A stretch of DNA of 40,707 nt from a virus: IMG/VR virus record IMGVR_UViG_3300036826_000015, positions 1 to 40,707 of that record, one strand, 5' to 3'. Below are positions 1-15,473 of the stretch, in pieces. Below the pieces are notes generated by a model. It was not told where the DNA came from. It searched no databases and worked only from the letters and a program-made list of their open reading frames with translations. The translations under genes were made by a program, and so were the position numbers. Every line of letters starts with the position of its first letter. The first letter of the stretch is position 1.

Positions 1-234
1 TTGAGGCTCATCACCCCTTATATTGAATTCAATATCAGGGTCAGTGTCCTCCTTTAATGCGTCGAGCATCGACCGCCGATGATAGACTTGTCGTGGCTCT
101 GGCTCAGGGACCGGTGCCAAAGGGCATTGGCTGTATAACGCCTCATGACCGTCACGGCCAAGCATGTAGCCACACTCACAGGTCCAGCGGTCTTTTCTCG
201 GATGGTAGGTCAGCTTATGGCTTAGTGTTCTCAT
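1..234 (-). CDS. Zinc-ribbon-like small protein, partial at left edge
   Basis: Open reading frame of 78 codons that runs off the left edge, so its C-terminus is unknown. It begins at ATG 234, inside the last codons of the upstream gene. An AAAGGAGG tract touches the start codon, which is closer than usual, so the start is uncertain. The N-terminal half holds C-x-C (CECGY) and a later QCP cysteine, which looks like half of a small metal-binding knuckle. The frame reads straight through palindrome copy 1 (translated as DPDIEFNIRG), whereas other copies lie between genes. The real protein could therefore be shorter or end just outside. Function not recognised. Confidence 0.5.
   Translation of the reverse strand, partial: MRTLSHKLTYHPRKDRWTCECGYMLGRDGHEALYSQCPLAPVPEPEPRQVYHRRSMLDALKEDTDPDIEFNIRGDEPQ
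14..43 (-). promoter_or_regulatory. Palindrome promoter/operator, copy 1
   Basis: Leftmost of 13 copies of a 22-bp dyad centred on GAATTC. On the minus strand it reads TGACCC, then a half-site altered by one base (CTGATA instead of CTTATA), then the intact half ending in TATAAG. The next bases carry GGGTGATG, the loop motif of the early leader hairpins, so an operon probably begins just off the left edge. The -35 here is CTGACC. Confidence 0.6.
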
Positions 235-3202: not shown

Positions 3203-3231
3203 GCTACTTGTCCTTTCATCATTGTTGTTTC

Positions 3232-3275
3232 GCTAGCCAGCCACGTCTGACTGATCTTCAGCGTGACTGGCTAGC
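3232..3275 (-). promoter_or_regulatory. Strong leader hairpin upstream of ERF gene
   Basis: On the minus strand GCTAGCCAGTCACG pairs with CGTGGCTGGCTAGC, a 14-bp stem with one G-U pair and a 16-nt loop. No U-tract follows, so it does not look like an intrinsic terminator. It lies between the preceding gene's stop and the ERF ribosome binding site. It may protect the mRNA 5' end after cleavage or control ERF expression. Confidence 0.7.
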
Positions 3276-3280
3276 TTGTT

Positions 3281-3716: not shown

Positions 3717-3753
3717 TGTTGTTCCTTTCGTTTGTTGTTGTTTCGTTGTCCAG

Positions 3754-3783
3754 CCCCTTATAATGAATTCAATATAAGGGTCA
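3754..3783 (-). promoter_or_regulatory. Palindrome promoter/operator, copy 2
   Basis: Minus-strand order is GTGACC, 16 bp, TATAAG, with the GAATTC-centred dyad (one mismatch, TTATAAG half). The TGA of its TGACCC is the stop codon of the upstream gene (3781-3783). A leader of about 35 nt follows, then the AAAGGAACAACA ribosome binding site of the gene starting at 3716. Confidence 0.75.
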
Positions 3784-4053
3784 CTGCCTAGCTAGCCGCT
3801 TCCACAATTCCTCTTCCACGCCATCAACACCGCCTGGTGGCGGTATCTGACAGGCATGATTGCCGCTGTTGTAGCGTAGGCTTTGCCATTGTAGATGCTC
3901 GTCACGAATCATGACGACACGTCCCAAATCGCTGCCGTAGTCGGCCAGAGTGATGGTTCCAAAGCCATCATAATCCTTGGGCGCACTTGTGCAGCGCACG
4001 TGGAATAGCTCGCTGTGCTCGCCGATTGTTACGTTGATTTTGTTATCTGTCAT
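3781..4053 (-). CDS. Hypothetical protein, 90 aa
   Basis: ATG 4053 follows AGGAGG with 5-nt spacing, a strong start. The protein is small, mixed in character and soluble (FGTITLADYGSDLGRVVMIRDEHLQWQSL suggests a beta-rich fold). No family recognised. It is the last gene of the helicase operon, and its stop codon is supplied by palindrome copy 2. Confidence 0.65.
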   Translation of the reverse strand: MTDNKINVTIGEHSELFHVRCTSAPKDYDGFGTITLADYGSDLGRVVMIRDEHLQWQSLRYNSGNHACQIPPPGGVDGVEEELWKRLARQ

Positions 4054-4065
4054 TGTTGCCTCCTG

Positions 4066-4506
4066 TTAATGACGCCAGCGACTTCGCCGGTTGGACGCGC
4101 TTTGTTGCGGCGTGACCCACCGGCAATTGCTTGGCGTGTAGTTTCCGTTGTTGTTTATCCGGTCAATGTAACGACCTTCTTGATACCCATGAGCAAGCGC
4201 CCACTTTCGGAATGACTCATACGAGTGCCACGCCTTACAGACCGTGATACCACGTGAGCCATAATACGTGGTTGGTTTCCGACAGCGCCAAAGCATCGTG
4301 CCCCAAATGCCATACAGCTTGGTCCGACTCTCGCCGTGTTTGCGAGTGCCCCAATTGGTGAGACACCCGCACGACATAGCACGTTGGCCATTGTTGCGAT
4401 CACGTTCGACTAGGTTGCCGCAGTGATTACAACGAAACAGCGCCCAGCCTCTAACCTTGCCTTGGGTGCCTTCTGGCCTAGTGCCGATGAATTGGACTTC
4501 AATCAT
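4066..4506 (-). CDS. HNH/AP2-type homing-endonuclease-like DNA-binding protein
   Basis: 146 residues. An N-terminal zinc ribbon (CNHCG, then SCGCL) is followed by LYGIWGTMLWRC, YYGSRGITVCKAWHSYESFRKWA and YIDRINNNGNYTPSNCRWVTPQQSASNRR. These last blocks are typical of phage HNH/AP2-like homing endonuclease and DNA-binding proteins. It starts in an ATGA overlap with the helicase and has no clear SD, so it is probably translated by coupling. Proteins of this type are usually mobile within phages, but here it is embedded in the operon without visible disruption. Whether it still cuts DNA cannot be judged. Confidence 0.75.
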   Translation of the reverse strand: MIEVQFIGTRPEGTQGKVRGWALFRCNHCGNLVERDRNNGQRAMSCGCLTNWGTRKHGESRTKLYGIWGTMLWRCRKPTTYYGSRGITVCKAWHSYESFRKWALAHGYQEGRYIDRINNNGNYTPSNCRWVTPQQSASNRRSRWRH

Positions 4507-6179
4507 ATAGCAAGCGTGGCATCTAACTGATCGTCATTAAACACACTGACCCTTTGCATTCTAGCTCTCACTTTCTCGCAGACGCTTTCCTCAAGCGTGT
4601 CGGCTGCCCACACGATCTTTTGGACCGAATGCGCGCCACCGGCACGATGGCAACGACCTAGCGCCTGCTTCAAGTCGATGCCGCTGTAAGTGGGACTGAT
4701 TAGGACTAGCCGTGGTTTGCCTTTGACCGTGCCTTGCAGGTCAATCCCCAAGCCACCAGCTTTGATGTTCATGACAACTATGTCCTCATCATCCGCGTTG
4801 AACCGATCTATCAACCGTTGACGGTGTTCCATGTTGTCCTCGCCGGTGATGGTGTTGGTTGTCCGCAGCTTCTTGGATACAGCTGTCACGCTGTCTTGGA
4901 AGTTTAGGACCACCACCACGGCATTACCCTCGTCACGGCCATCCTTGGCCATCTGGACAATGGTTGGGACCTTGAGCAATTCCACCTTCTGGCGTGCCCG
5001 CAATAGCTCGGTCAGTATGCAACTGCCTTTATCCCTGCGCTTGGATTCTTCCAGCTTGGCTAGCTCACGGTGCATTTCAGCATACACATCGTTGATCTGG
5101 CTGGCCAGACCGTTCATGTCGTATGCCTCACTGATGATCTGTGTCTGTGGGAATCGGTCGCCAAGGTCCGCTATCCTGATGCGTGTCCCGCGTGCTGGAA
5201 AGATTTGCCGGTGAATCTTGGACAACACGTCGCGGCCACCTACAAACTCCCAGCCAAACCTAGCTTTGACCACGCCATGAGCACGCGCCCAGCCCCAATA
5301 AGCGTTGGGATGCGCTATCAGGTCGGTCAGCAACGCCACAAACTTCATGTGCAGCGGGTTATCGGCTGCCGTGGCGCTAGCTCCTATGACCTTGTAGCCT
5401 TGGTCCAAGGCAGCTATGCCCATGTGACAGTTTTGGGTCGTGGCATCCTTCAGCCGGTGACATTCATCGAACACGAACAGCCGGTTGTCAGGGTCCAGGT
5501 CGGTGAACTCAAACTGTCGCCACTTGCGGCCAGACTTGGGATGAACCTTCTCAACCCACTCGCCGTATTGGGTCCTGCCGGTCTTGAGCATTTCATAGTT
5601 GATAACGTCAATGCCCACCTTGAATCGGCGTGCCATGCGCTTCCACGGTCGCATTATGTTCTTGGGACAAACCACGAACAGCTTGCGTCCTAACACCTTG
5701 GCGACCGCCACGGCCACGCCTGTCTTGCCGGTGCCGGTGTCGCTGGCGTCCAGAGCGCCGTTGAAACCGTCCAGCACCATCGCTAACCGCCTCACACTTG
5801 GCAGCTGGTAGCGATAGTTGTTGCCGGTTTCCTTTTCGATCTCATGGTAAATCTCGCAGACTTCCAGAAACCGTTTCATCAGGTCATCGGGCAATTCTGC
5901 CTCAGCTTGCTCGGCACGTTGCTGGATAGCTTCACGCTGCTTGACCGCTTCCAAGTCTTTGGTCACTAGCTCGCCATCCACGTCGCTCCACTCGGTCAGC
6001 CGCCATTCGCCTTTCCATTTGGATATGGAATAGCCTTGCTGCCGGAGATAGCCGGTGCGCCATTCCTTCCAGAATGACTCGCCTTGAATCGGCCACTCAC
6101 GGATTCGACGCTTGCCGTGCTTGGTGTCGATGACCTTCGGCTCACCCCAAGGCACATCGTTGATACTGAATGGACTCAT
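4503..6179 (-). CDS. SNF2/SF2-type DNA helicase
   Basis: 558-residue superfamily 2 ATPase. Walker A DTGTGKTG is at 147-154, the DECH box at 238-241, motif III-like GASATA at 266-271, and the C-terminal motif VI QALGRCHRAGG at 505-515. NIKAGGLGIDLQG at 471-483 is typical of SNF2-like helicases. About 120 N-terminal residues precede the ATPase and form an uncharacterised helical domain. Its likely role is remodelling DNA or recombination intermediates during replication. Start ATG 6179 overlaps the upstream stop as ATGA, with an AAAGGCGG ribosome binding site. Confidence 0.85.
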   Translation of the reverse strand: MSPFSINDVPWGEPKVIDTKHGKRRIREWPIQGESFWKEWRTGYLRQQGYSISKWKGEWRLTEWSDVDGELVTKDLEAVKQREAIQQRAEQAEAELPDDLMKRFLEVCEIYHEIEKETGNNYRYQLPSVRRLAMVLDGFNGALDASDTGTGKTGVAVAVAKVLGRKLFVVCPKNIMRPWKRMARRFKVGIDVINYEMLKTGRTQYGEWVEKVHPKSGRKWRQFEFTDLDPDNRLFVFDECHRLKDATTQNCHMGIAALDQGYKVIGASATAADNPLHMKFVALLTDLIAHPNAYWGWARAHGVVKARFGWEFVGGRDVLSKIHRQIFPARGTRIRIADLGDRFPQTQIISEAYDMNGLASQINDVYAEMHRELAKLEESKRRDKGSCILTELLRARQKVELLKVPTIVQMAKDGRDEGNAVVVVLNFQDSVTAVSKKLRTTNTITGEDNMEHRQRLIDRFNADDEDIVVMNIKAGGLGIDLQGTVKGKPRLVLISPTYSGIDLKQALGRCHRAGGAHSVQKIVWAADTLEESVCEKVRARMQRVSVFNDDQLDATLAI

Positions 6180-6430
6180 GGCCGCACCGCCTTTCGCAAC
6201 TCACGCTGCCACTTGCCTACACCGTGAAGCGCAATGCCGGTTGCTCCGGTATAGCCGGTGGCACGTCCATCGTTGTCGAATACAACGCTGCCGGTGTCGG
6301 ACGTTTGCAACGTGGCGTGTCGCTCGCTGATTTGTAGGATTCTGGCCAAGCCGATTTCACAGTGCCACTTGTGTCGGCGTGTCGCTCTATACCAGACAGA
6401 CACCAGGTCGCCTCTCTTGAACTTTCTCAT
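6176..6430 (-). CDS. Small KOW/SH3-like protein, 84 aa
   Basis: Start ATG 6430 (MRKFKRG) follows AAAGGA with 6-nt spacing. An upstream in-frame ATG six codons earlier lies inside the SD region and is less likely. The opening FKRGDLVSVWYR and LARILQISERHATLQTSDTG look like a small beta-barrel of the KOW or SH3 kind. First gene of the helicase operon, downstream of a leader hairpin and palindrome copy 3. Function unknown. Confidence 0.65.
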   Translation of the reverse strand: MRKFKRGDLVSVWYRATRRHKWHCEIGLARILQISERHATLQTSDTGSVVFDNDGRATGYTGATGIALHGVGKWQRELRKAVRP

Positions 6431-6442
6431 CTTGTTTCCTTT

Positions 6443-6476
6443 CTTCAATGGCGCATCACCCGCGCCAAGGTTGAAG
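6443..6476 (-). promoter_or_regulatory. Leader hairpin with GGGTGAT loop (A)
   Basis: On the minus strand CTTCAA pairs with TTGAAG (outer stem) and TGGCGC with GCGCCA (inner stem) around the loop GGGTGAT. It ends 12 nt before the start codon, just before the SD. Same loop as at 7267, 10414 and 12126. Confidence 0.7.
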
Positions 6477-6508
6477 CGTCATTGCTTCATGCTGCCGTGT
6501 CGGTCCTA

Positions 6509-6538
6509 CCCTTATATTGAATTCAGTATAAGGGTCAA
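6509..6538 (-). promoter_or_regulatory. Palindrome promoter/operator, copy 3
   Basis: Best sigma70-like copy: minus-strand TTGACC, 16 bp, TATAAG. The spacer is the dyad CTTATACTGAA and TTCAATATAAG. It directs transcription into the KOW-like/helicase operon through a leader of about 75 nt carrying hairpin A. Confidence 0.8.
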
Positions 6539-6573
6539 CTCTCAACACGGCAGACCGGAGCAATCACTATAGG

Positions 6574-6807
6574 TTAGCGACCGCGAATGCCGACAAGGTT
6601 GTCACCCTCAAACATCTGGCCATTCGGATAGATGTCGATCTGCCGCTTGCCTATGATGATGCGGCTGGTTGGGACTCCCTGGACTTGGTAGGCTTGCTGC
6701 CTTCTCAGGATGTAATTGCGGTTGTCTGACCGGTGGCGCTGTCTCGGTTCTCCCAAGACCGTGCTCACGATACAGAGCAGCAGCAAAATGACGGTAGTCA
6801 TTCTCAT
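6574..6807 (-). CDS. Secreted small protein, 77 aa
   Basis: Has a classical signal peptide (MRMTTVILLLLCIVSTVLG, cleavage expected near residue 19) followed by a basic mature part of about 58 residues. Start ATG 6807 follows AAAGGAACAAC, the phage's recurring SD. The whole N-terminal 200 bp lies inside the gene starting at 6931 in another frame. A membrane protein with an embedded exported protein recalls Rz/Rz1 spanin gene nesting. There is no lipobox here, however, and the lipoprotein is the next gene upstream instead. Function unproven. Confidence 0.65.
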   Translation of the reverse strand: MRMTTVILLLLCIVSTVLGEPRQRHRSDNRNYILRRQQAYQVQGVPTSRIIIGKRQIDIYPNGQMFEGDNLVGIRGR

Positions 6808-6931
6808 GTTGTTCCTTTCGTTTGGTTAGGTGCTGCTTGATCGCCAGCCCTAAGAAGTAGGCAGCGACTAACAGCCACAATGTTTGCCACGCCCAAAACG
6901 CGGTCGGCAGACCGCGCAAGATAATGGGCAT
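6608..6931 (-). CDS. Inner-membrane protein, 107 aa, overlaps secreted protein gene
   Basis: Start ATG 6931, one base after the upstream stop, so translational coupling is likely and no SD is seen. One transmembrane helix (AFWAWQTLWLLVAAYFLGLAI, about residues 11-31) is followed by a charged KQHLTKRKEQHENDYRHF segment. The Pro- and His-rich remainder is the frame that overlaps the secreted protein gene for 200 bp. The N-terminal 50 residues look genuine, while the C-terminal half may be constrained mainly by the other frame. Candidate inner-membrane component of a lysis or envelope complex. Confidence 0.55.
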   Translation of the reverse strand: MPIILRGLPTAFWAWQTLWLLVAAYFLGLAIKQHLTKRKEQHENDYRHFAAALYREHGLGRTETAPPVRQPQLHPEKAASLPSPGSPNQPHHHRQAADRHLSEWPDV

Positions 6932-6932
6932 G

Positions 6933-7244
6933 CTAATAGCGATGCACATACACCGTAGTTGGTGGAGCGTAGATGATTGGGGTCCTAGCTGTGGCAGCGT
7001 ATATCGCACCGGCATTAGCCATGCCAGTAGCAAAGGCCATAGCCGCTTGCTGTGCTTGGGCCTGTTGACGCTGTTTGTCGGCCAATATCTGCTCATCCAG
7101 TCGCGCCTGTTCATAAAACTTTTGCGGACTGTTGGGCATGTTGGCTATCGCTGCTTGCCTGCTGTTGACGTATCGTTCAAAGGCAGGGTCAGCACACGAT
7201 ACTAGGGTGAACGCGGTCAAGATGACCGCCACTAACTTACTCAT
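6933..7244 (-). CDS. Lipoprotein, 103 aa
   Basis: N-terminus MSKLVAVILTAFTLVSC ends in a lipobox with Cys17 as the lipidation site. The mature part has a Q- and A-rich helix (QILADKQRQQAQAQQAAM) and a Tyr-rich C-terminus. It should be anchored in the outer membrane or outer leaflet. The genes downstream encode an inner-membrane and an exported protein, so the three could form an envelope or spanin-like set. This is inferred from topology only. Weak SD (AAAGACAAACAACA), preceded by leader hairpin B. Confidence 0.7.
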   Translation of the reverse strand: MSKLVAVILTAFTLVSCADPAFERYVNSRQAAIANMPNSPQKFYEQARLDEQILADKQRQQAQAQQAAMAFATGMANAGAIYAATARTPIIYAPPTTVYVHRY

Positions 7245-7266
7245 TGTTGTTTGTCTTTCTGTTGAA

Positions 7267-7287
7267 TGAGAGCATCACCCGCTCTCA
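7267..7287 (-). promoter_or_regulatory. Leader hairpin with GGGTGAT loop (B)
   Basis: TGAGAGC pairs with GCTCTCA around the loop GGGTGAT, a perfect 7-bp stem, 22 nt before the lipoprotein start codon. It lies in a 119-bp gap after the GHKL ATPase gene, so here the hairpin is intercistronic rather than promoter-linked. Confidence 0.7.
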
Positions 7288-7363
7288 GGGTTGGACCGTG
7301 ATTGGCCCTCACTGGCCGCCAAGCCGAATAGCCTGACGACCAGCTGAGGAGCAATCCCTTGGG

Positions 7364-8827
7364 TTACTTGTTTGTCATCCGATCTACAAGCGCACGATGA
7401 ATGCGCTGCCTGCGCAGCTGCCAGTCCTCAGTTTCCTTTAGCCGCTTGGCTGCGGACCGCGAGAACAACTGGTCAATGATCTTGACTGACTCATTGATCT
7501 TGGCCGCAAATTCACCCACGACCGTAGCCAGGATGGTCTTGCGGTTGCGTGCCGTGTCAACCATGTATGGATGTTCCTTGTTTATCCACGCCACGAATGC
7601 CGCATCTTGTCCGTCAAAGGACACCAGAGCGCCTTTCATCTGCTTGTCGCTCTTGAACACGAAGTTCAGCTTGGCCGCTCGCCGTGGCTCAGGCTTGCCA
7701 TCAGGGTCAAGTGGCTGATCTGGATGCGTATGCTTATGCTTGTTCGGACCGCGCTTGCCGCCTTTGCGCTCAAATTCCGGCACGTCGATGACAGCGCGGG
7801 TCACGGTCAAGTCGCCTTTCAGCAACAGGTCGCTCAACTCCAACGCTAGGTCGGCGAAAGCAATGGACAGTTTGTTTTCCTCTTCCATGTCCAAGATTGG
7901 CTGGATTTGATGGATGATCTGCTTGCGCAACGACTGATACACTACCTGGTCGGCAATCTCATCTTTCTCCGTGGTCAACGGCCAACTGCCTTTCAGCTTG
8001 ATGAAGCCGGTGACTTGGGTCGCTGGGACCGCCTCACCCTTGGCATTGAAAAAGAAGTCACGTGTTGACGTGATAACTCTGTCCGCATAGCACAGGTGAA
8101 TCTTGACCGCGTCTGAGGGTAGGTCATCACAGATGCCTACCTCACCGACCGCTTCCAACGCACCCACCTTGGCTTTGACCTTCACCGATGTTTTGAACAC
8201 CGGCATCGCTGTCTCCAACGGCTGGCCATTGAAGAATATCTCCACGCCAGCGGCCAAGGCAGGCGCAAACTTGATCGCCAAGTCACGCGTGATGTTCTCT
8301 TCACGAACAATCTTGCCCGCAACCACCTTGCCTATGATGGCTGTGCCGTGCCTCAGCTTGAGTAGGTCCTTGGGAGTGTTGTGAGAAGTCGGCTTGAACA
8401 CCTTGTCCTCAATCTCAGGGTATCGGTTGGACTCAAACACCGCATCCCAATCCACCTTGTCATGAGCCAGCTTGCCTTTGCGTAGCGTCCAGACCACGCA
8501 ATGATGGAACAGCCACAGGATGGCCTTGCTTCCACCGAAGCCAAACTTGCCGATGTCGCCTTCAACTTCATCAGCGCCCATGCCTAGCACGAACAAGGGG
8601 AACACGTCTGGCCGGTCGGGTTTGCTCGGCATCCTCATGCCCACGCCATCATCCACGATTGCCAACAGCCGGTTATGCCGGTTGTATCGAATCCAGATGC
8701 GGCCAGCGTTGCCACGACCTTTGCCGCGTGAGTTGTCAACGAGTTCAGCCAGAGCGCCGGACACTGACCAGCGTTCATTGCGGATGGCATACAACGCTCG
8801 TGGCGACGGTATCGCTTGACGCTTCAT
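7364..8827 (-). CDS. GHKL-superfamily ATPase (MORC/Hsp90/MutL-like)
   Basis: 487 residues beginning at ATG 8827 (AAAGGAG, 7-nt spacing). The N-terminal Bergerat ATP-binding fold is clear: N-box ALAELVDNS (E28, N32), G1 box IVDDGVGM (57-64), and G2 box GKFGFGGSK (93-101). It lacks a histidine-kinase dimerisation helix. The middle carries a second domain like the S5 transducer of GHKL machines, and the C-terminus is basic. Such proteins clamp or remodel DNA or proteins with ATP. The phage role is unknown. A basic 161-residue protein is encoded immediately upstream with an ATGA overlap and may be a partner. Confidence 0.8.
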   Translation of the reverse strand: MKRQAIPSPRALYAIRNERWSVSGALAELVDNSRGKGRGNAGRIWIRYNRHNRLLAIVDDGVGMRMPSKPDRPDVFPLFVLGMGADEVEGDIGKFGFGGSKAILWLFHHCVVWTLRKGKLAHDKVDWDAVFESNRYPEIEDKVFKPTSHNTPKDLLKLRHGTAIIGKVVAGKIVREENITRDLAIKFAPALAAGVEIFFNGQPLETAMPVFKTSVKVKAKVGALEAVGEVGICDDLPSDAVKIHLCYADRVITSTRDFFFNAKGEAVPATQVTGFIKLKGSWPLTTEKDEIADQVVYQSLRKQIIHQIQPILDMEEENKLSIAFADLALELSDLLLKGDLTVTRAVIDVPEFERKGGKRGPNKHKHTHPDQPLDPDGKPEPRRAAKLNFVFKSDKQMKGALVSFDGQDAAFVAWINKEHPYMVDTARNRKTILATVVGEFAAKINESVKIIDQLFSRSAAKRLKETEDWQLRRQRIHRALVDRMTNK

Positions 8828-9309
8828 TGATGCGCTCCTTTCTCGTTGATGCTCTTCCACTGCTCGCCATCCCATGCCCACCCCAGCGGTGCCACGAATG
8901 GCTTGGCTGGCGTGGCTCTGAGATATGCTCTCATCAGCTTGATGAACAGCGGCCAGTTACCTTCTTCACTTGCCTCGTGAATGAAGTCCCTGAATAATGC
9001 CTCATTGAACAAGCGCCAGACCGGAATCAGGCTTGGCACGTGGACCATCTGTAATGGACCTACACGGCCAATAACCTTGGACTTGAGCGCCTTTCCCTTG
9101 CCCTTAGATTTGTTTTGTCGCACCGGCAAAGATGCCTCAACCGGCTTGGTTGCGCCATTTCTGCCAGATTTGGGCCTGTAAGCCGGTTTTGGGCGTGCGA
9201 CGTTTGCGCCTATCGCGTTTTTATTCGCTGTCGGCTGTCTTGACCCAGGCTTTGGGAGATAGCGCCCAGTGACGCTATCCCGCAGCCGTTTAGTGGTGAT
9301 TGGCTTCAT
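8824..9309 (-). CDS. Basic protein with disordered N-terminus, 161 aa
   Basis: The first ~85 residues are rich in K, R, P and G (SVTGRYLPKPGSRQPTANK, PVRQNKSKGKGKALKSK), which suggests an unstructured nucleic-acid-binding arm. The last ~70 residues are helical (VWRLFNEALFRDFIHEA, WPLFIKLMRAYLRA). Its stop overlaps the GHKL ATPase start as TGA/ATG, so the two are probably made in concert. Family not recognised. Confidence 0.65.
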   Translation of the reverse strand: MKPITTKRLRDSVTGRYLPKPGSRQPTANKNAIGANVARPKPAYRPKSGRNGATKPVEASLPVRQNKSKGKGKALKSKVIGRVGPLQMVHVPSLIPVWRLFNEALFRDFIHEASEEGNWPLFIKLMRAYLRATPAKPFVAPLGWAWDGEQWKSINEKGAHQ

Positions 9310-9437
9310 AGCCGAATCCCCAAGGCATGTTCGATGCGCCGGATGGCTTGCGCCTTCTGGAGCACGAATGCCGGTTTGCCATGAGTGATCTTGGCCTTGC
9401 GCCTTGACCTATGGCGTTTGTTTTTGCGTGTTTTCAT
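9306..9437 (-). CDS. Very basic 43-aa peptide
   Basis: ATG 9437 follows AAAGGAACAACAAT, the phage's recurrent SD. The peptide begins MKTRKNKRHRSRRKAKI and ends IRRIEHALGIRL, overlapping the next start as ATGA. The composition suggests binding to nucleic acid. First gene of the GHKL operon, after palindrome copy 4. Confidence 0.55.
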   Translation of the reverse strand: MKTRKNKRHRSRRKAKITHGKPAFVLQKAQAIRRIEHALGIRL

Positions 9438-9465
9438 ATTGTTGTTCCTTTCATTGTTGGAGAAA

Positions 9466-9494
9466 CGCCACAGCCGAATTGAACAGCCGTGGCG
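9466..9494 (-). promoter_or_regulatory. Leader hairpin after promoter copy 4
   Basis: CGCCACGGC pairs with GCTGTGGCG (9 bp, one G-U) around an 11-nt loop. A short TTT follows, so it might act as a weak attenuator or as an mRNA-stabilising stem. It lies between promoter copy 4 and the SD of the basic peptide gene. Confidence 0.6.
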
Positions 9495-9505
9495 CTCTGT
9501 AGCCA

Positions 9506-9536
9506 CCCCTTATATTGAATTCAGTATAAGGGTCAG
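9506..9536 (-). promoter_or_regulatory. Palindrome promoter/operator, copy 4
   Basis: Minus strand CTGACC, 16 bp, TATAAG, with the dyad half-sites CTTATACTGAA and TTCAATATAAG. It separates the ParB-like gene from the basic peptide/GHKL operon and leads into a hairpin-bearing leader of about 70 nt. Confidence 0.75.
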
Positions 9537-9540
9537 CGCC

Positions 9541-10371
9541 TTACTTCTTGGCCTTGGCAGCCTTCTTTTTGGCTGGCGCTTTCTTCGCTGCCTTCGCTGC
9601 CTTGGCTGCTTCTGCTTTCTCTGCCTCAGCCTTCTCAACCGATGGCGTCTTGGCGTCAGCCGGTCGGCGGTCGTTGATGAACGCCTGGACGTGTTTGATC
9701 ACCTCACGGTGCTGCGTCTGCGGCCAGTGCTTGAGCAACCGGCTCCACGCCATCCACACCTCATCCTCAAACGTGCGGACCGTTTTGCGTGGTTTCTTCT
9801 TGCTCACGCCAGCTTTCTTGGATGCCTGTTTCAGCGTCATCTTCTTTTGGATGACATCTTCAATCAGACCAGCTTTGCGCGCTTTCTCAGCTTGCCCCAT
9901 CTTGTGGGTCGTGGTCTTGCCAGCAGCCGCCAACTGCGCGACTGACGTGCCTTTCTCGCCGTTGCCCTTGAATGAGCCTGACTTCTTGCCAGCGGCCAAT
10001 TGCCGCTCTCTGGCTGCCTTCTCATACTTGGGTCCTAGCACCTTGGACACGTAGCCAATGCGCTGATCTTCAGTCAAGTGGCGACGGAACACGTTGAGGC
10101 GAAGGATTTCAGCCTCAATCTCGCTGTCCTTACCCTGGAACACGTCATATGGAACATCCTTCTGGATGCCCAACTCGGTTGCGATCTGCCACCGGTTGCG
10201 ACCATCAATGATGGTGTCCAGCTTCTTGTTGACCAGAATCGGCACGACTATGCCGTTGGCCTTAATGTCATCACGCAATAGTTCCAACTCATCGCCGCCA
10301 AGCGTGTCGAACGTTCTTGCGAATGGATGTATCTTCATCACTGCTTTTAGTGGTTTGTCTTGTTCACTCAT
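9541..10371 (-). CDS. ParB/KorB-like DNA-binding protein with histone-like tail
   Basis: 276 residues. The N-terminal ParB/Srx-fold domain is visible: IHPFARTFDTL, then IKANGIVVPILVNK, IIDGRNRWQIATELG and NVFRRHLTEDQR. A central region with VAQLAAAGKTTTHKM and LKQASKKAGVSKKKP resembles ParB helix-turn-helix segments. The last ~45 residues are almost only A, K and E, like H1-type histone tails. ParB and KorB proteins bind palindromic sites and can act in partition or as global repressors. The 13 dispersed palindromes of this phage are possible targets. Start ATG 10371 has no strong SD. Confidence 0.75.
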   Translation of the reverse strand: MSEQDKPLKAVMKIHPFARTFDTLGGDELELLRDDIKANGIVVPILVNKKLDTIIDGRNRWQIATELGIQKDVPYDVFQGKDSEIEAEILRLNVFRRHLTEDQRIGYVSKVLGPKYEKAARERQLAAGKKSGSFKGNGEKGTSVAQLAAAGKTTTHKMGQAEKARKAGLIEDVIQKKMTLKQASKKAGVSKKKPRKTVRTFEDEVWMAWSRLLKHWPQTQHREVIKHVQAFINDRRPADAKTPSVEKAEAEKAEAAKAAKAAKKAPAKKKAAKAKK

Positions 10372-10413
10372 GTTGTTGTTTGGGCGTTATCCGTTGCCCT
10401 TCGGTTTTGGTTT

Positions 10414-10433
10414 GAAGTGCATCACCCGCCTTC
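10414..10433 (-). promoter_or_regulatory. Leader hairpin with GGGTGAT loop (C)
   Basis: GAAGGC and GCACTTC pair (with one bulged base) around the loop GGGTGAT, 42 nt before the ParB-like start. This stem is weaker than in A, B and D, but the loop and its GC closing pairs are identical. Confidence 0.55.
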
Positions 10434-10463
10434 TTGGGTCTGCCGCGTTGTGCCGCAGAATGA

Positions 10464-10487
10464 ACCGGCTGTTGCTGTCCAGCCGGT
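10464..10487 (-). promoter_or_regulatory. Intercistronic hairpin upstream of ParB-like gene
   Basis: ACCGGCTG and CAGCCGGT form a perfect 8-bp stem with an 8-nt loop in the 126-bp gap between two genes. No T-tract follows. Possible mRNA processing or attenuation element. Confidence 0.5.
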
Positions 10488-10497
10488 CGATCTGCCG

Positions 10498-10782
10498 TCA
10501 ATCGCAGAATCGGTCGCGTGCTCGCCGACCGAATTCACCGTTGCCCGCCTTTGGTGCGTCCGCGTTGCGACGTTTGCGCTTACGCACACGGACCACACAG
10601 GGATTGGCCGGTGCTGCGCCGACCAAGCTAAAACGTTTGCCCTGTTCACGTTCCCTCATGATTTGCGCTATACGGTGCCGAAAGTCGCTGACTGTCTCTT
10701 GAGCCAATTTGCGCGCTCCGGCAATTCTAGCGCAAACGTCGCTGCGGCGCTGGGCCTTTCTGCCGCGTGTCGGACCGCTCAT
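10498..10782 (-). CDS. Basic hypothetical protein, 94 aa
   Basis: ATG 10782 follows GGGAGG with a short spacer. The protein is Arg-rich throughout (MSGPTRGRKAQRRSD, VRVRKRKRRN) with a helical centre (LAQETVSDFRHRIAQIMRERE), as in small DNA- or RNA-binding proteins. It ends an operon of short genes reaching back to 12105. Family not recognised. Confidence 0.6.
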   Translation of the reverse strand: MSGPTRGRKAQRRSDVCARIAGARKLAQETVSDFRHRIAQIMREREQGKRFSLVGAAPANPCVVRVRKRKRRNADAPKAGNGEFGRRARDRFCD

Positions 10783-11000
10783 TTTGCCCTCCCGATGATA
10801 CCGTCCACCATACGCTGGAAACGGTCGGCATCAGCCAATTGCCGTTCTTGCGCTCCGGTGACGGTGTTCATCCGATGTAACCACGCCTTGGCGCTGCGCT
10901 CTTGCTCCCACGCAGGACCGAAAAACATTTCAACCCGCCGTGTCCCAAGGTAGCCATACCAATTGCCGTAGATGTTCTGATGTATCCTAGCTTTCATCAT
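10779..11000 (-). CDS. Hypothetical protein, 73 aa
   Basis: Starts at ATG 11000 (or the adjacent ATG 10997) behind GAGGAAAACAACA. The N-terminus reads as a small beta motif (IYGNWYGYLGTRRVEMFFGP), followed by a helix (SAKAWLHRM). The start lies within the last codons of the upstream gene and its stop overlaps the next start as ATGA. Unknown function. Confidence 0.65.
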   Translation of the reverse strand: MMKARIHQNIYGNWYGYLGTRRVEMFFGPAWEQERSAKAWLHRMNTVTGAQERQLADADRFQRMVDGIIGRAK

Positions 11001-11322
11001 TGTTGTTTTCCTCGTTGAATTGCTTCCATGAATGGTCGTATGTCAACCGCAACGACTGAACAAACAGCCGGTGCGTGGTCGTCATCCCAACCAGCCGTAT
11101 CTTGGCATGATTGGGCCAAACTGGACCGCCATTCTTCCAGTCGGTCGGCGTGACCTCATCCATTGACTCGTAAACGAGCAACTGACTTGGTTTGGCCGTG
11201 GCTGGCACTTCGTCTTGAGCCAACCGTATCGCTGCGGCTGGCACTTGGTGAATCCCAAAGCCATGCTCGCTGACCGCGATATAGAATGGCTTTGGCTTGT
11301 GTGCGAAGGATAGTTCACTCAT
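10987..11322 (-). CDS. Hypothetical protein, 111 aa
   Basis: ATG 11322 follows GGGAGCACAACA and overlaps the upstream stop as ATGA. Mixed alpha/beta soluble protein (PFYIAVSEHGFGIHQV, QLLVYESMDEV, IRLVGMTTTHRLFVQSLRL). No family or motif recognised. Part of the small-gene early operon between promoter copies 5 and 4. Confidence 0.6.
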   Translation of the reverse strand: MSELSFAHKPKPFYIAVSEHGFGIHQVPAAAIRLAQDEVPATAKPSQLLVYESMDEVTPTDWKNGGPVWPNHAKIRLVGMTTTHRLFVQSLRLTYDHSWKQFNEENNNDES

Positions 11323-11516
11323 TGTTGTGCTCCCAGGATGGCACCCGCGATTGCTGCCATGATGCGTTGCCGCTCTTCTGGCGTGACGCATTGCTCACAG
11401 ATGCTATCCAACTCTGCTTTGGCGTTGTCTGCGCCGTGGATTGACCGGCTAGCGGTCGCCAACCGGCAGCCGCATCGCCGACAAGACGTGGTTACAATTG
11501 TAATGCGCCTTCTCAT
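11319..11516 (-). CDS. Small zinc-ribbon protein, 65 aa
   Basis: Two Cys pairs, C-x2-C (CRRCGC near residues 12-17) and C-x2-C (CEQC near 40-43), followed by TPEERQRIMAAI, the layout of the short phage zinc ribbons often annotated as DUF2688. That assignment is from memory and tentative. The start at 11516 overlaps the upstream stop (TAATG). Confidence 0.65.
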   Translation of the reverse strand: MRRRITIVTTSCRRCGCRLATASRSIHGADNAKAELDSICEQCVTPEERQRIMAAIAGAILGAQQ

Positions 11517-11821
11517 TAGCGTGCTCCAATGTTGTAGCCACTGAACACAGCCACGCCATTCTCACGGAATGACTCAGCCATCCGCTTCTGGCGTGCCTGT
11601 TTGATGGCGCGTTTCTTGACCGCACCGAGAAACTCGATGCGCTTGCGCGCCTGCCTCTCAACGAAGCTGGTTGGCCGATTGTATGACTCACGCTTCCACG
11701 TGGCTCTCTCATCCCACGGTAGCTTCATCAGCTTGTCGGCCAGCGCGTTGACTTGCGCTTCAATCGCTGGCGACATGCGGTGATACTTCTTATGTGCTGA
11801 CGTGAAGTAAGGGTCCATCAT
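11516..11821 (-). CDS. Hypothetical basic protein, 101 aa
   Basis: ATG 11821 follows TAGGAGCGAAGCA and overlaps the upstream stop. Mostly helical with a basic middle (VERQARKRIEFLGAVKKRAIKQARQKRM). The opening MMDPYFTSAHKKYHRMSPAIEAQVNALADKL is helical too. Unknown function. The neighbour upstream is the Imm-like membrane protein. Confidence 0.6.
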   Translation of the reverse strand: MMDPYFTSAHKKYHRMSPAIEAQVNALADKLMKLPWDERATWKRESYNRPTSFVERQARKRIEFLGAVKKRAIKQARQKRMAESFRENGVAVFSGYNIGAR

Positions 11822-12105
11822 TGCTTCGCTCCTATCGCCGCGATCAATTGCCGGTGCTGCCACTCTTCACGTCGCAAGTCCGCTTTGGTCTTGCCGGTGA
11901 AGGCCCAGATGAAGCACACCACCCATCCCACTACGGTCCAACCCAGGACCGCATTGAGCAGGAATATGCCGATGCCGCCGTTGGCCTTGCCGCGAAACGC
12001 AGCGATGAACGCTGGCAGCATGTAGATGAAGAACAGCAACAGCAGCATGGATAGTCCCACCGCTGCGTTGCCGTCTGTCGTTGTAGTTGTTGCTAAGGTT
12101 ATCAT
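11818..12105 (-). CDS. Superinfection-immunity-like membrane protein (Imm family)
   Basis: 95 residues with two transmembrane helices (about 14-35 and 47-70). The block FLLNAVLGWTVVGWVVCFIWAFTG closely fits the signature of the superinfection immunity family (Pfam Imm_superinfect, T4 Imm-like). Members sit in the inner membrane and block DNA entry of related phages, but many family members are untested. First gene of its operon, ATG 12105 behind GAAAGAACAACA and leader hairpin D, so it may be made early after infection. Confidence 0.7.
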   Translation of the reverse strand: MITLATTTTTDGNAAVGLSMLLLLFFIYMLPAFIAAFRGKANGGIGIFLLNAVLGWTVVGWVVCFIWAFTGKTKADLRREEWQHRQLIAAIGAKQ

Positions 12106-12125
12106 TGTTGTTCTTTCTATTGTGA

Positions 12126-12144
12126 GAGCGCATTACCCGCGCTC
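12126..12144 (-). promoter_or_regulatory. Leader hairpin with GGGTAAT loop (D)
   Basis: GAGCGC pairs with GCGCTC around GGGTAAT, about 20 nt before the Imm-like start codon and downstream of promoter copy 5. The one loop change (G to A) keeps the GGGTRAT pattern seen in hairpins A, B and C. Confidence 0.7.
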
Positions 12145-12178
12145 ATTTGGTTCTGTCCGCGTGATGCGTCCAGAGAGA

Positions 12179-12208
12179 CACCCTTATATTGAATTCAGTA
12201 TAAGGGTG
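12179..12208 (-). promoter_or_regulatory. Palindrome promoter/operator, copy 5
   Basis: The symmetric core (half-sites CTTATACTGAA and TTCAATATAAG) extends to CACCC and GGGTG on both sides, the longest dyad of the set. The usual TGACCC is replaced by GCACCC, so the -35 box is the weakest. TATAAG is intact. It leads to the Imm-like operon. Confidence 0.65.
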
Positions 12209-12223
12209 CTTGCTCTGACTCAC

Positions 12224-12520
12224 TCAAGCCAACGTGGGCGCTATCCGCTCAACCCAACGCTTGGCTGCTTGGACCGTGGCGAAGTCGCGGCATTGCTCCG
12301 CGCCTGTGCCATACAGACCGCCAGGCAGGTCACGATAGACGTATGCCTTGGCGAACACCGGCTTGCCGTCACTGATTTCGTTTCTGTAGGTCAGATAGAA
12401 ACCGACCGGCTTTTGACCATCCCACGTCTGAGACAGACCGTCGATGTAGCACCAGCCACGTGGCGTGGTTGCTCCTTTCGGTTCATCCCAGCGGACCTTC
12501 TTGTTGTTAGCTTTTCTCAT
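12224..12520 (-). CDS. Hypothetical protein, 98 aa
   Basis: ATG 12520 follows AAAGGAAACAACA. Beta-rich, aromatic protein (GWCYIDGLSQTW, GFYLTYRNEI, FAKAYVYRDLPGGLYGTG) ending in a helix (VQAAKRWVERI). Family not recognised. Last gene of the operon that begins beyond the structured-RNA region. Confidence 0.65.
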   Translation of the reverse strand: MRKANNKKVRWDEPKGATTPRGWCYIDGLSQTWDGQKPVGFYLTYRNEISDGKPVFAKAYVYRDLPGGLYGTGAEQCRDFATVQAAKRWVERIAPTLA

Positions 12521-12695
12521 TGTTGTTTCCTTTCGGTTCACTGACGATTGCTTCAACGTCACTCCACTTGGCCTCGTAAACATGGTTGTCGTGAATGTCG
12601 CTGTAGCTGAATGTGCGCTTGCTCTTGTGCGGCCAAATCACCGCCACGCAGCGCGTATCGTGATGGCTTGGCTTTCCTTTCCACTTGATGGTCAT
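12507..12695 (-). CDS. Hypothetical protein, 62 aa
   Basis: ATG 12695 lies seven bases after the upstream stop and is preceded by AAACAACA without a clear SD, so coupling is likely. Contains CVAVIWPHKSKRTFSYSDI and VYEAKWSDVEAIV, resembling a small alpha/beta fold. The stop overlaps the next start region by 14 bp. Unknown function. Confidence 0.55.
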   Translation of the reverse strand: MTIKWKGKPSHHDTRCVAVIWPHKSKRTFSYSDIHDNHVYEAKWSDVEAIVSEPKGNNNEKS

Positions 12696-12701
12696 TGTTG
12701 T

Positions 12702-12974
12702 TTAGCTGTTGATGATGCGCTGCCGGTAGTCGTTGCCGTAGATGGACCACCACTGACGCTCAACTTTGAGCAGTGGCAGCTTTCCGTTGGCCGTGCGCTG
12801 CTGGTTAATCTCCCTGAGCGCCATCGCCTTGGCCAGCTTCAATAAGCCGGTCTCATAGCATTGCTGCATCCGATAGATGCTGGTGTTGTTAGCTATCGCC
12901 ATCACTTCCCAACTCATGTTCGGATGGTCGATGACGTATTGCTCACGCTTGGTCAGTTTGTATGCTTCGTTCAT
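12702..12974 (-). CDS. Putative helix-turn-helix small protein, 90 aa
   Basis: ATG 12974 overlaps the upstream stop as ATGA. The N-terminal KLTKREQYVIDHPNMSWEVMAIANNTSIYRMQQC reads like a helix-turn-helix in which MAIANNTSIYRMQQ is the recognition region. This is a visual impression only. The C-terminus has paired Trp and Tyr residues. Could be an early regulator. Confidence 0.55.
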   Translation of the reverse strand: MNEAYKLTKREQYVIDHPNMSWEVMAIANNTSIYRMQQCYETGLLKLAKAMALREINQQRTANGKLPLLKVERQWWSIYGNDYRQRIINS

Positions 12975-13105
12975 TGTTGTTCTACTGCTACCCGCCTTTC
13001 AAACGGGTTGTTGTTGGCTGTCTTGTTGTTGGTGTAGCGTCCAGCGCATTGGCCGAACATAAACGCGGCCACGAACAGCGCGGCCACGATCAATACGATT
13101 CTCAT
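12971..13105 (-). CDS. Short exported or membrane peptide, 44 aa
   Basis: Too short for ordinary gene callers but well supported: ATG 13105 behind AAAGGACAACAACA, with the stop overlapping the next start as ATGA. The N-terminal MRIVLIVAALFVAAFMFGQC is a signal-anchor or lipoprotein-type sequence ending in Cys20. The rest is Asn-rich. First coding gene after the candidate structured RNA, so its leader may be the RNA itself. Confidence 0.6.
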   Translation of the reverse strand: MRIVLIVAALFVAAFMFGQCAGRYTNNKTANNNPFERRVAVEQQ

Positions 13106-13139
13106 TGTTGTTGTCCTTTCGTTCTATTGCTTGATGCAA

Positions 13140-13720
13140 CAGAGAGAAACGGCTGTGTGTCACTCATAGCCGCTCGTGCTCTGTAGCACTTCGTTGACTG
13201 CCTACATTTGTGTGTCCTACTGTCGTTGGCCATTTAGCTGGCACTTTCGGTCCACAAGACTTTCGGCAATCGCCTTATCCAAGTCACTTTCGCAACGTCC
13301 CACGTTTAGCACGTTCACCCTACTTTCATTGGAGATATTGCGCTTGGCGCACTCACTTTCGGGTTTGCCACGGTTCTGCGTGGGTCATCCACTAATCATT
13401 GACTTGGCTCATTCCTCGCCTCACTCAACGTGGCTCTCTGCTCGCCGATCTTACGTTGGCCGCTCACGCACGATGCATCGTGCTCCTGATGAGGTGACTT
13501 CGCTGGGCGCTTCGTCACTCGCCTTTGGGCAATGGCTCCTTTCGGATTTTACGACCTATCCTTGCGTGCAAGGTCTCAGTGGGACTTCCACCGGCCTGAG
13601 CGTTTCCCTCGCTCACCCGCCGCGTCCGCTTTTCACTTCGCTTCTACCGGCTGTCCGGTCACTTCAGCTTACTTCGCTTTCGCCGCTTTTCCCTATCAAA
13701 ATCAGACTATCCATATGACG
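13140..13720 (-). ncRNA. Candidate large structured RNA (about 560 nt)
   Basis: The minus strand has frequent stops in all frames and reads as structured RNA. Visible local stems include CAGAG/CTCTG enclosing CGGCT/AGCCG (13146-13181), TGTAG/CTACA, GACTT/AAGTC, AACGT/ACGTT, TGCGC/GCGCA, the self-complementary GCACGATGCATCGTGC (13467-13482), CCTTG/CAAGG, GTGG/CCAC, TGAGCG/CGCTCA and ACCGG/CCGGT. GCCACG pairs at long range with CGTGGC. CGAAAG occurs six times (13244, 13260, 13287, 13356, 13539, 13677). Phages are known to carry large ornate RNAs (ROOL, GOLLD), but I cannot assign this to one. I see no group I or group II intron core. Ends are approximate and the strand is inferred from gene direction. 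Confidence 0.5.
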
Positions 13721-13760
13721 GAACGTTCGAAAAGAAAAGAACTTTTTTTGCTCCGCGCAC

Positions 13761-14008
13761 CGATTTTTGGGAAGTAACAGAGGGTCTGTGTTTTACGCTG
13801 CGAAATTTATTCGTGGGCATACGTGTCCACGCCGTGGGCATAAAACTTTTTTGGCGTTTTTGGCGCTCGCCGGTCGATTTTTGAGCCGGTCGAATCGGTT
13901 TGCGCCGACCGGATTTGAACGCATTTCTGGCCACGTTCTGGTGGCGCGTGGGCATAGCGAGTTTATGGACACGCGTGGGCACGCTCTGTCCACGTGCGTA
14001 GGATTGCG
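13761..14008. other. Non-coding repeat-rich spacer, possible control or origin region
   Basis: About 250 bp with no convincing gene. On the minus strand TATGCCCACG-like boxes occur several times among CGTGG/CCACG stems, GACCGG-containing repeats appear three times, and CAAAAATCG occurs twice in a longer imperfect repeat. TGGACA and TGTCCA form a hairpin just after the kinase stop. Iteron-like repeats beside A-tracts would fit a replication origin or a protein-binding control region. A terminator function for the hairpin is also possible. Short frames here (CPR- or MPT-repeats) simply mirror the DNA repeats. Confidence 0.4.
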
Positions 14009-14533
14009 CTAGATTGCGAGCGTATCCGTGACGCGGTCGGCTATTGCGCTCACATCTTCGAACGATTCGTTGCGCATCCTCGACACGGGAAACGTGTGGG
14101 CGATACGGTCGATGAGCGTGGCGCGTGACCGGTGAAATTGCTCCGGTTGCGTATCGTGACGCGCTGTGTGTCGCCGCGACTTTTCCGGTGCGCTCGTTTC
14201 GATGAGGAAAAGCGTGAGCCGGTCGCCAGCCGCTTGAAAGAAACCAGCGCGTGTGAGCCGGTCGCCTTCGAAAAGGATGGTGGCCTTGTCAGGCACCTTG
14301 GAAAGAAACCGGATTGCGTCTGGCTGGACCGCCATTGATAGCCGGTCGGTCCCACCAAACAACTCATCATCGTGATAGATGCCCAAGACGTAAAGACCGC
14401 GCTTGGCGTATTGGCGACCGACCACCAGCCGGTATTTGAACAGCGTGTAATCATCGCCCAGGCGCTTGAGCACTTCGCGCATGACGGTTGTCTTGCCGGT
14501 TGCTGGCTCACCGATTATGCCCACGACTCTCAC
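14009..14533 (-). CDS. P-loop nucleotide/DNA kinase, candidate base-modification kinase
   Basis: 174 residues. GEPATGKTT at 8-16 is a Walker A loop, followed by an NMP-kinase-like core (TILFEGDRLTRAGFF, LTLFLIETSAPEKSRRHTAR). Small P-loop kinases of this type phosphorylate 5-hydroxymethyluracil in DNA in hypermodifying phages (HMUDK). The helical-domain protein next door supports that reading. A deoxynucleotide kinase is the main alternative. The start is GTG 14533, only 9 nt downstream of the TATAAG of promoter copy 6 and with no SD, so the mRNA should be leaderless or nearly so. Confidence 0.7.
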   Translation of the reverse strand: MRVVGIIGEPATGKTTVMREVLKRLGDDYTLFKYRLVVGRQYAKRGLYVLGIYHDDELFGGTDRLSMAVQPDAIRFLSKVPDKATILFEGDRLTRAGFFQAAGDRLTLFLIETSAPEKSRRHTARHDTQPEQFHRSRATLIDRIAHTFPVSRMRNESFEDVSAIADRVTDTLAI

Positions 14534-14540
14534 ACGCCTA

Positions 14541-14571
14541 CCCTTATATTGAATTCATTATAAGGGGTCAA
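14541..14571 (-). promoter_or_regulatory. Palindrome promoter/operator, copy 6
   Basis: Minus strand TTGACC, 17 bp, TATAAG: the closest match to sigma70 consensus spacing in the set. The dyad has one changed base (CTTATAATGAA half). TGA of TGACC is the stop codon of the upstream gene (14568-14570). The kinase GTG lies 9 nt past the -10 box. Confidence 0.8.
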
Positions 14572-15473
14572 GCCACACGATTCTCGCAGAGCAAATCCGG
14601 TCGAAACGTTTCACGCCGATAGTCCCACAGGACCGACCAATCAACGCCATCTGTAACATTTGTTTGCGCGGACCGGATTTCATCGGCCTGTCTGTCGATG
14701 TAGTATCCTGGCCAGCGTTTCCCAAGGTGATACTTCTTGTAGGCGCAGAGGGTTGTTTCAATGTTCCATACGTTGCTACCTGGTTGCTGTTCGCGCAACT
14801 CGTCCACAACATCTTGGAAGCAGGCTTGTAGGTAGCCCATGTCACGCTGCGATAGCCGCTTGCCGTTGCCGTGGGTGTTGAACTCCGGCATCCCAAGCGC
14901 CATCACCAGACCGTTGCGACAACTCTCAGCGTCACGCATCTTCATGGTGCGTGGTTCCATTGGAAAGCCGGTCACTACATGGACCGCTTCGGTGTAAAGC
15001 CATAGCCCAAAACGTCCCATTTGAAACCACTTGGATGCCTCGTCACTCACGATCTTGTAAGTGGTGAACGGGTCATGCGGCACTTCGAATTGGCGCAGGT
15101 AGCCTTCTTGTGTGAGCGGTCGGACCGCTGCGCTGTAGCTGCGAAGCATATCCACCCACTGGTTACGCGAGCGGACCCAGCGCCGGTCGGTCTGGAACAC
15201 TACCTTGTCACGATTGGCTTTCCACCAGCGGTCAGCGCGATTGAAGTCAACATTCTCCCAATCGGGAAACTCATTGTAGATGTAGAACGTGGTCGCACCG
15301 CAGTAGCAAGTGCTGTAGATGTAGGCCAGCCAATAGCGTTGTTCCGTATTTAACTCAAAACGATCGCAGATGTAGCGCAGCATGGAATAGCTAGGGTCAA
15401 CATCGCCGATTGCCCTGCTTTCAGCGTGATATTCTGGATAGGACTTGAGTGACGGATAGCTGGCCCAATTCAT
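14568..15473 (-). CDS. HMUDK-helical / aGPT-Pplase-like DNA hypermodification protein
   Basis: 301 residues, mainly helical. RYWLAYIYSTCYCGATTFYIYNEFP (46-70), FQTDRRWVRSRNQ (93-105) and YTEAVHVVTGF recall the helical domain that accompanies 5-hydroxymethyl-dU DNA kinases and the alpha-glutamyl/putrescinyl-thymine pyrophosphorylase (aGPT-Pplase) families. This is recognition from memory, not a search. Those proteins act with a P-loop kinase to activate hmU and displace the phosphate with another group. Here the kinase is a separate gene just downstream, and an amidotransferase and a TET/JBP oxygenase are just upstream. Starts in an ATGA overlap at 15473. Confidence 0.6.
   Translation of the reverse strand: MNWASYPSLKSYPEYHAESRAIGDVDPSYSMLRYICDRFELNTEQRYWLAYIYSTCYCGATTFYIYNEFPDWENVDFNRADRWWKANRDKVVFQTDRRWVRSRNQWVDMLRSYSAAVRPLTQEGYLRQFEVPHDPFTTYKIVSDEASKWFQMGRFGLWLYTEAVHVVTGFPMEPRTMKMRDAESCRNGLVMALGMPEFNTHGNGKRLSQRDMGYLQACFQDVVDELREQQPGSNVWNIETTLCAYKKYHLGKRWPGYYIDRQADEIRSAQTNVTDGVDWSVLWDYRRETFRPDLLCENRVA

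Follow-up and report, generated by a model that had tools for sequence, protein, structure and literature searches.

Expression platforms of riboswitches and attenuators contain mutually exclusive helices that use one common strand. Another group of structured RNAs, the RAGATH RNAs (RNAs associated with genes associated with twister and hammerhead), is located near phage-type genes and near hammerheads. For type II hammerhead ribozymes, a pseudoknot between loop I and the 3' tail is described, and a hammerhead variant lies 13 nucleotides (nt) upstream of a helicase gene in the haloviruses HF1/HF2 (Perreault et al., 2011; PMC3088659). Hammerhead and twister ribozymes are reported to be enriched near genes of Mu-like phages (PMC10085705), and a pseudoknot in the 5' untranslated leader of timP is reported to govern translation of the toxin (PMC11228461). 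The present analysis concerns a repeated leader RNA in the early region of an uncultured tailed phage, represented by the virus record IMGVR_UViG_3300036826_000015 (positions 1-40,707; the entire 40,707-base stretch is referred to as the window). A preliminary description had noted four leader hairpins with a common GGGTRAT heptaloop. This observation is correct, and what it describes is the terminal part of an RNA that recurs between genes. As judged from the sequence, each of them, denoted hairpin C below, forms only the 3' part of a larger RNA filling the gap between two co-oriented early genes, which are probably co-transcribed. The hairpins had thus been rightly recognized, but the larger element around each of them had been overlooked.

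A direct scan recovered all four hairpins at the claimed coordinates, in the orientation of the genes (minus strand; Table 1). Three stems are perfect (6, 7, and 6 base pairs, bp), and the hairpin at 10427 needs a bulged A. The sequence GCGGGTRATGC occurs four times on the minus strand of the window, and neither on the plus strand nor in the reversed control. The bare heptamer is hardly enriched (11 matches versus 6.3 expected; 11 were reached in 4 of 100 shuffles). Three hairpins of at least 6 bp with a common loop (at most one mismatch) were found in none of 300 dinucleotide shuffles, and three GGGTRAT loops in stems of at least 6 bp in none of 500. With the stem limit lowered to at least 5 bp, a cluster of three was reached in 8 of 100 shuffles; therefore, the 6-bp criterion matters. 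The inner stems end 18, 22, 43, and 20 nt before an ATG, or 12 nt if the outer stem at 6443 is considered, which agrees with the described distance of 12-45 nt to an early gene start. No T-run follows any hairpin C in the window, so that none of them qualifies as an intrinsic terminator. A fifth copy had been proposed next to the first dispersed palindrome; the heptamer GGGTGATG (16-10) does exist there, but its flanks are unpaired, it has no stem and is situated at the contig edge, and it is not a member of the group.

Two relatives carry the element as well. In L160 (IMGVR_UViG_3300047160_002076), whose helicase is 57% identical to that of the window, leader hairpins with the loops GGGTGAT or GGGTGAA and once AGGTGAA are all placed just before start codons; G025 contributes a single copy, GGGCGC-GGGTGAT-GCGCCC. 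Altogether, 16 copies are available from three phages (4 in the window, 1 in G025, 11 in L160). A further L160 hairpin at 8056 was omitted from all counts owing to its missing ACC linker; this variant leader hairpin, CCTGC-GGTGAAA-GCAGG, precedes a homologue of the window gene 6574-6807. In the alignment of the 16 copies, 96.3% of the 80 cells of five stem pairs are paired and all five pairs show two-sided changes. The stem covariation score is 0.95, compared with 0.25 for shuffled alignments (0/500) and at most 0.15 for slid structures. These values are in part due to construction, as the sites were chosen for having a hairpin. All 16 copies agree in GGT of the loop and in the A that follows after one intervening base, itself a purine; the seventh base is A or T. 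A fairer test is provided by model R2, which was trained exclusively on the 11 L160 copies and run over 97.6 kb comprising the window plus three loci of G025. Only five matches up to an E value of 5 were obtained: all four copies of the window and the one of G025 (E 1.7e-3). Copies 1 and 2 scored 26.1 and 25.3 bits (E 1.6e-4 and 2.7e-4), copy 4 16.7 bits (E 0.075), and copy 3, the weakest, 14.6 bits (E 0.28).

Outside these carriers the element is rare. Relatives in IMG/VR reach 77% identity for the portal gene and 89%, over part of its length, for the structural protein 31563-33059. None of the 18 portal relatives contains GCGGGTRATGC, and among 46 relatives detected by the structural protein 45 lack it; many of these are late-region fragments, and the early region is missing from most contigs related by either protein. 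Further early regions of relatives were located by helicase alignment, which yielded no relative in genome_contigs. Window positions 1-14000 have no near match among GenBank phages, and single-protein scans and a palindrome scan returned nothing. Over 995,621 bases from other relatives, model R1, built from all 16 copies, gave nothing convincing (best E 0.15, inside a coding sequence). A motif widespread among phages was also considered and discarded: an IMG/VR scan for GCGGGTRATGC plus ACAACAATG returned 15 stretches that all lacked a convincing stem, and one for CGGGTGAWG plus GAAAGGA plus ATG gave 53, with clear copies only in L160's own contig (L228, L233) and a marginal one, L254, with a 6-bp stem including one G-U pair. 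Since most other relatives lack the element and no further clear copies appeared in relatives or in IMG/VR, these sequence searches indicate that it is real but confined to a small clade; conservation throughout the family is ruled out by the absence of GCGGGTRATGC from most relatives and by the R1 search. The loop is therefore kept in relatives, as had been asked of it, as GGGTRAW or AGGTGAA in two phages, but is absent from most of the family.

The constancy of the loop is accompanied by a second constant feature. In 14 of the 16 copies, the 12 nt on the 5' side of the hairpin C stem include an ACC triplet, which is true of 69 of 446 control hairpins taken from these three sequences and of 134 of 936 12-mers from leaders. 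The triplet is separated from the stem by 0-5 nt and, as ACC or ACCC, is complementary to GGU or GGGU of the loop. A stem of 5-7 bp, this short gap, and three leftover loop bases (RAW) would suit an H-type pseudoknot, and the conserved loop probably pairs with the nearby ACC in this manner. Such pairing would be a simpler reason for loop conservation than protein binding. A kissing partner in the large non-coding region was also examined and dropped; the alignment was poor, and TCACC is too common to be meaningful.

From 5' to 3', the element consists of strand 1, hairpin A, strand 2, hairpin B, the ACC linker, hairpin C, a Shine-Dalgarno sequence, and the ATG. In most copies, strand 1, read from the sequence, begins at or within approximately 15 nt of the stop codon of the preceding gene, and hairpin C lies 12-22 nt before the ATG in 14 of 16. 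Hairpin B and the linker that follows it are separated by 0-2 nt in 15 of 16 copies; among control ACC sites, a hairpin is as close in 115 of 656. The stems of B mostly differ from copy to copy. A conserved loop of hairpin B was considered and abandoned, as the loops are A-rich without clear enrichment. An outer helix of at least four Watson-Crick pairs encloses hairpin A in 10 of 16 copies, compared with 102 of 1254 control hairpins. It mostly includes a 3x2 internal loop, and its 3' strand overlaps the 5' arm of hairpin B. Comparison of the copies thus establishes, at the level of sequence, hairpin C with its covariation and loop, the linker enrichment, hairpin B, and the position before the ATG.

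Table 1. Positions of the leader element, its parts, and related features in the window and in relatives (parts listed 5' to 3' on the strand given)
Feature	Position	Strand	Details
Hairpin C, copy 1	6467-6449 (loop 6461-6455)	minus	TGGCGC-GGGTGAT-GCGCCA; plus outer CTTCAA/TTGAAG
Hairpin C, copy 2	7287-7267 (loop 7280-7274)	minus	TGAGAGC-GGGTGAT-GCTCTCA
Hairpin C, copy 3	10433-10414 (loop 10427-10421)	minus	GAAGGC-GGGTGAT-GC(A)CTTC
Hairpin C, copy 4	12144-12126 (loop 12138-12132)	minus	GAGCGC-GGGTAAT-GCGCTC
Element copy 1	6428..6576	minus	stop codon 6576-6574 (gene 6574-6807) to ATG 6430; strand 1 ATTGCT 6564-6559; hairpin A 6553-6492 (encloses dispersed palindrome); strand 2 AGCAAT 6486-6481; hairpin B 6489-6472; linker ACC 6471-6469; Shine-Dalgarno AAAGGA
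Element copy 2	7242..7366	minus	stop codon 7366-7364 (gene 7364-8824) to ATG 7244; strand 1 GATTG.TCCTCA 7356-7345; hairpin A 7343-7312; strand 2 TGAGG..CAATC from 7311; hairpin B GGGCC-AATCAC-GGTCC 7308-7293; linker ACCC 7291-7288
Element copy 3 (before ParB-like gene)	10369..10500	minus	stop codon 10500-10498 to ATG 10371; strand 1 near 10496-10491; hairpin A 10487-10464; hairpin B CTGCGGC-ACAAC-GCGGCAG 10458-10440; linker ACCC 10439-10436
Element copy 4	12103..12226	minus	stop codon TGA 12226-12224 to ATG 12105; strand 1 GTCAGAG 12219-12213; hairpin A 12208-12179 (= dispersed palindrome); strand 2 CTCTGGAC 12175-12168; candidate hairpin B CTGGACGC-ATCAC-GCGGACAG 12173-12153, tandem GA mismatches; linker ACC 12151-12149
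Fifth GGGTGAT, after palindrome copy 1	10..16	minus	non-member: stemless, contig edge
Hammerhead_II match, early-gene leader	L156 3680-3758		above gathering threshold
Hammerhead_II match, early-gene leader	L156 6904-6979		
Hammerhead_II match, early-gene leader	L116 2092-2172		
Hammerhead_II match, early-gene leader	L153 16783-16881	minus	
Hammerhead_II match, early-gene leader	L127 15615-15684		
Dispersed palindrome, 13 copies	14-49, 3754-3789, 6508-6543, 9506-9541, 12180-12215, 14540-14575, 17770-17805, 21919-21954, 25532-25567, 28054-28089, 31536-31571, 35311-35346, 40485-40520		TTATAYTGAATTCARTATAA

The element looks bistable, because the 5' arm of hairpin B can pair either way. If the 3' arm of B is withheld during folding, 3-10 nt of its 5' arm pair upstream in all 16 copies, and the predicted energy difference between the B state and the outer-helix state ranges from -5.5 to +3.6 kcal/mol. 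In one state, strand 1 would pair with strand 2 and thereby close hairpin A across a small internal loop; in the alternative state, strand 2 would join strand 3 to form hairpin B. The ACC(C) linker following B could then pair with GGU (or GGGU) of the GGGTRAW loop, giving a short H-type pseudoknot with a conserved S1 of 3-4 bp, a freely varying S2 of 5-7 bp, and the RAW loop residues crossing S1. A ribosome terminating on the upstream gene would cover strand 1 and release strand 2 for hairpin B, the state with B and the pseudoknot beside the start site would be favoured, and translation of the downstream gene, or processing or stability of the mRNA, may in this way be coupled to upstream translation. 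The element might accordingly be named a cis-acting bistable leader switch for translation or mRNA processing, a reading to which we assign, from the sequences at hand, a probability just short of even.

Several observations weigh against this reading. Near-duplicates occur among the 11 L160 copies, so that the counts are not independent. The linker reads ACT or GCC instead of ACC in two L160 copies; G-U wobble pairing is possible in these, but wobble-allowed triplets are common by chance. Because S1 (ACC:GGU) hardly varies, there is no covariation to prove the pseudoknot. By the strict rule, the window copy at 12138 has no hairpin B, only the candidate with tandem GA mismatches, and two copies (6461 and L160_8924) have no hairpin A by the outer-helix rule. 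Strand 1 taken by itself gives weak results in shuffle tests, with 3 of 16 copies at p <= 0.05 (Fisher combined 0.005). The Shine-Dalgarno sequence is mostly unpaired in both predicted states, which leaves the effector step unclear. The pseudoknot pairing and the alternative helix are accordingly supported but not proven. Overall, the structure is well supported, the pseudoknot and the switch moderately so, whereas the ribosome trigger and the effect on expression, and with them the function, are what we infer from this arrangement.

Chance hairpins or a composition artefact would fit the scarcely enriched heptamer and the clusters of three in shuffles at the 5-bp limit; the empty shuffle sets at 6 bp, the covariation, and the recovery by R2 from another phage refute this in practice and leave it a negligible probability. 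An RNA-level function, as proposed in the preliminary description, is strongly supported by the common loop, the covarying stems in relatives, and the invariable position before start codons; protein binding is not among the supported parts of that proposal. That description named binding of a phage or host RNA-binding protein, or translational control of early genes, as such a function. As a translational operator, the hairpin would be bound by a protein that reads loop and linker directly, and the constant loop with varying stems, the many copies per genome, and the location before start codons are what such an operator would show. Pairing with ACC, however, would explain the loop conservation, a simple operator needs no alternative helices, and no tested early gene is common to carriers only, the search for a carrier-specific RNA-binding protein among these early genes having produced no candidate; we regard this explanation as rather improbable. 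Still less probable is a ribosome standby site. The 3' tail of 16S rRNA reads UCACCU and is complementary to GGGUGA of the loop; GGUGA is present in most loops, and the spacing upstream of the regular Shine-Dalgarno sequence would be suitable. GGGTAAT in one window copy breaks this pairing, though, the seventh base varies between A and T, and it is the bases able to pair with ACC that are constant; on these grounds, pairing with the anti-Shine-Dalgarno sequence was rejected as the cause of loop conservation. A leader peptide was considered by inspection only: the 11-mer reads AGDA in one frame, and no support emerged.

The element could also be a module for RNA processing: as a self-cleaving ribozyme that has escaped recognition, perhaps, or as a site cleaved by an RNase, it might cut or protect the polycistronic early mRNA between genes. 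The leader of the ParB homologue speaks in favour of this alternative. Four relatives carry a match to the Rfam family Hammerhead_II directly upstream of this gene, all below the gathering threshold of 37 bits (G025 35.5, G047 34.6, G035 31.7, and G023 28.8 bits) and all with CTGATGA cores, where the window (10500-10369) and L160 (7168-7275) have the element. Among ten distinct ParB leaders of relatives, four are hammerhead-like, one contains the element (L160, as L228), and five contain neither. L160_9933 aligns with the G023 hammerhead over approximately 25 nt comprising stem I, core, and tail, GCCTGCA(C)TGAT(GA)GCAG(A)GAACCCACA, the best of 85 comparisons (0/200 shuffles). This similarity, seen in sequence alignment, is a lead to a common origin and no proof; it is clear in one copy only, and the mean z over all 85 comparisons is 0.7. 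In G025, moreover, hammerheads and element occupy different leaders, a match of 46.2 bits (L156 3680-3758) being located upstream of a non-ParB gene. Neither a CTGA.GA core in the L160 ParB leader nor a CUGANGA/GAAA/UH core in the element was seen, and only about six bases of the element are nearly invariant. No Rfam family reached its gathering threshold anywhere in the window (0 matches); at E <= 1, window positions 1-15000 gave just one unrelated weak microRNA match and the L160 copies none. As no hammerhead core is visible and no Rfam family matches, the element is not classed as a type II hammerhead by the core criterion, while its position upstream of the ParB homologue is shared. A processing module is hence considered unlikely, if less so than the operator, and the bistable leader switch is retained as the working interpretation.

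The genes around the element are those of a tailed phage. Structural genes of the window include portal (38360-40093), major head (35349-36722), tape measure, and tail fibre, and the early half holds Erf, exonuclease, helicase, and ParB-like genes. Gene 7364-8824 (minus strand) encodes a protein of 486 amino acids that carries a GHKL-ATPase-like motif and has no PHROG match and only one distant match in GenBank phages. Residues 385-452 in the C-terminal part of the major head gene product (minus strand) match phage endonuclease VII families; by these matches the gene joins a head protein and an HNH-like nuclease domain in one polypeptide. The window also contains 13 dispersed copies of a GAATTC-centred palindrome at a spacing of 2.4-5.2 kb, two of which fall within hairpin A of the leader element. 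Relatives L089, L087, L116, L127/L128, and L135 have their own dispersed palindromes of different sequences. It is possible that these palindromes are ParB-like or repressor sites. Long non-coding stretches with many small stems precede early genes in three phages (window 13190-13760, minus strand; L160 2400-2930; L156 3000-3780), those of L160 and G025 having TCAATCGACAATTTGG in common. They gave no Rfam match except for the hammerhead at the end of the G025 stretch, and possibly represent a large structured RNA.

If the proposed structure is correct, one phage would harbor a compact RNA in four copies and its relative in eleven, with loop and linker kept constant and the stems changing freely, and these copies would form a natural mutational series for an RNA device absent from the RNA library searched. 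The presence of the element at a leader where relatives carry hammerhead-like ribozymes would then offer a handle on the purpose of self-cleaving ribozymes in phage mRNAs. A description of the element or of the GGGUGA motif was not found among the papers listed by literature searches, as judged by titles and abstract openings. A more far-reaching idea is that translation-sensing bistable pseudoknots constitute a class of multi-copy intergenic RNA devices of tailed phages, extending from a stop codon to the next ribosome binding site, which perhaps evolved from, or are interchangeable with, hammerhead leaders, one lineage having swapped self-cleavage for a switch at the same gene; this is conceivable, if doubtful.

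Among described systems, timP has a leader pseudoknot that acts, as reported, in translation start, which is one of the roles proposed here for the element. In the published account, timP is a single chromosomal type I toxin gene with a 7-bp pairing between two stem-loops, by which the Shine-Dalgarno sequence is sequestered, whereas no such sequestration is predicted for the element. RAGATH-type RNAs differ in that the element drew no Rfam match at E <= 1, either in window positions 1-15000 or in L160. In contrast to riboswitches and attenuators, the 5' half of the element has no conserved aptamer-like core and no terminator follows the hairpin; alternative helices around a shared strand would be common to both. 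The type II hammerhead (RF02276) has no counterpart in the element for its visible catalytic core, Rfam match, and strand order, and its tail pairs with loop I, whereas the AACC tail of the element would pair, if at all, with the downstream loop. Like the element, however, it is a compact multi-stem RNA located between phage genes, right before a gene, and in four relatives a match to it occupies the very same ParB leader.

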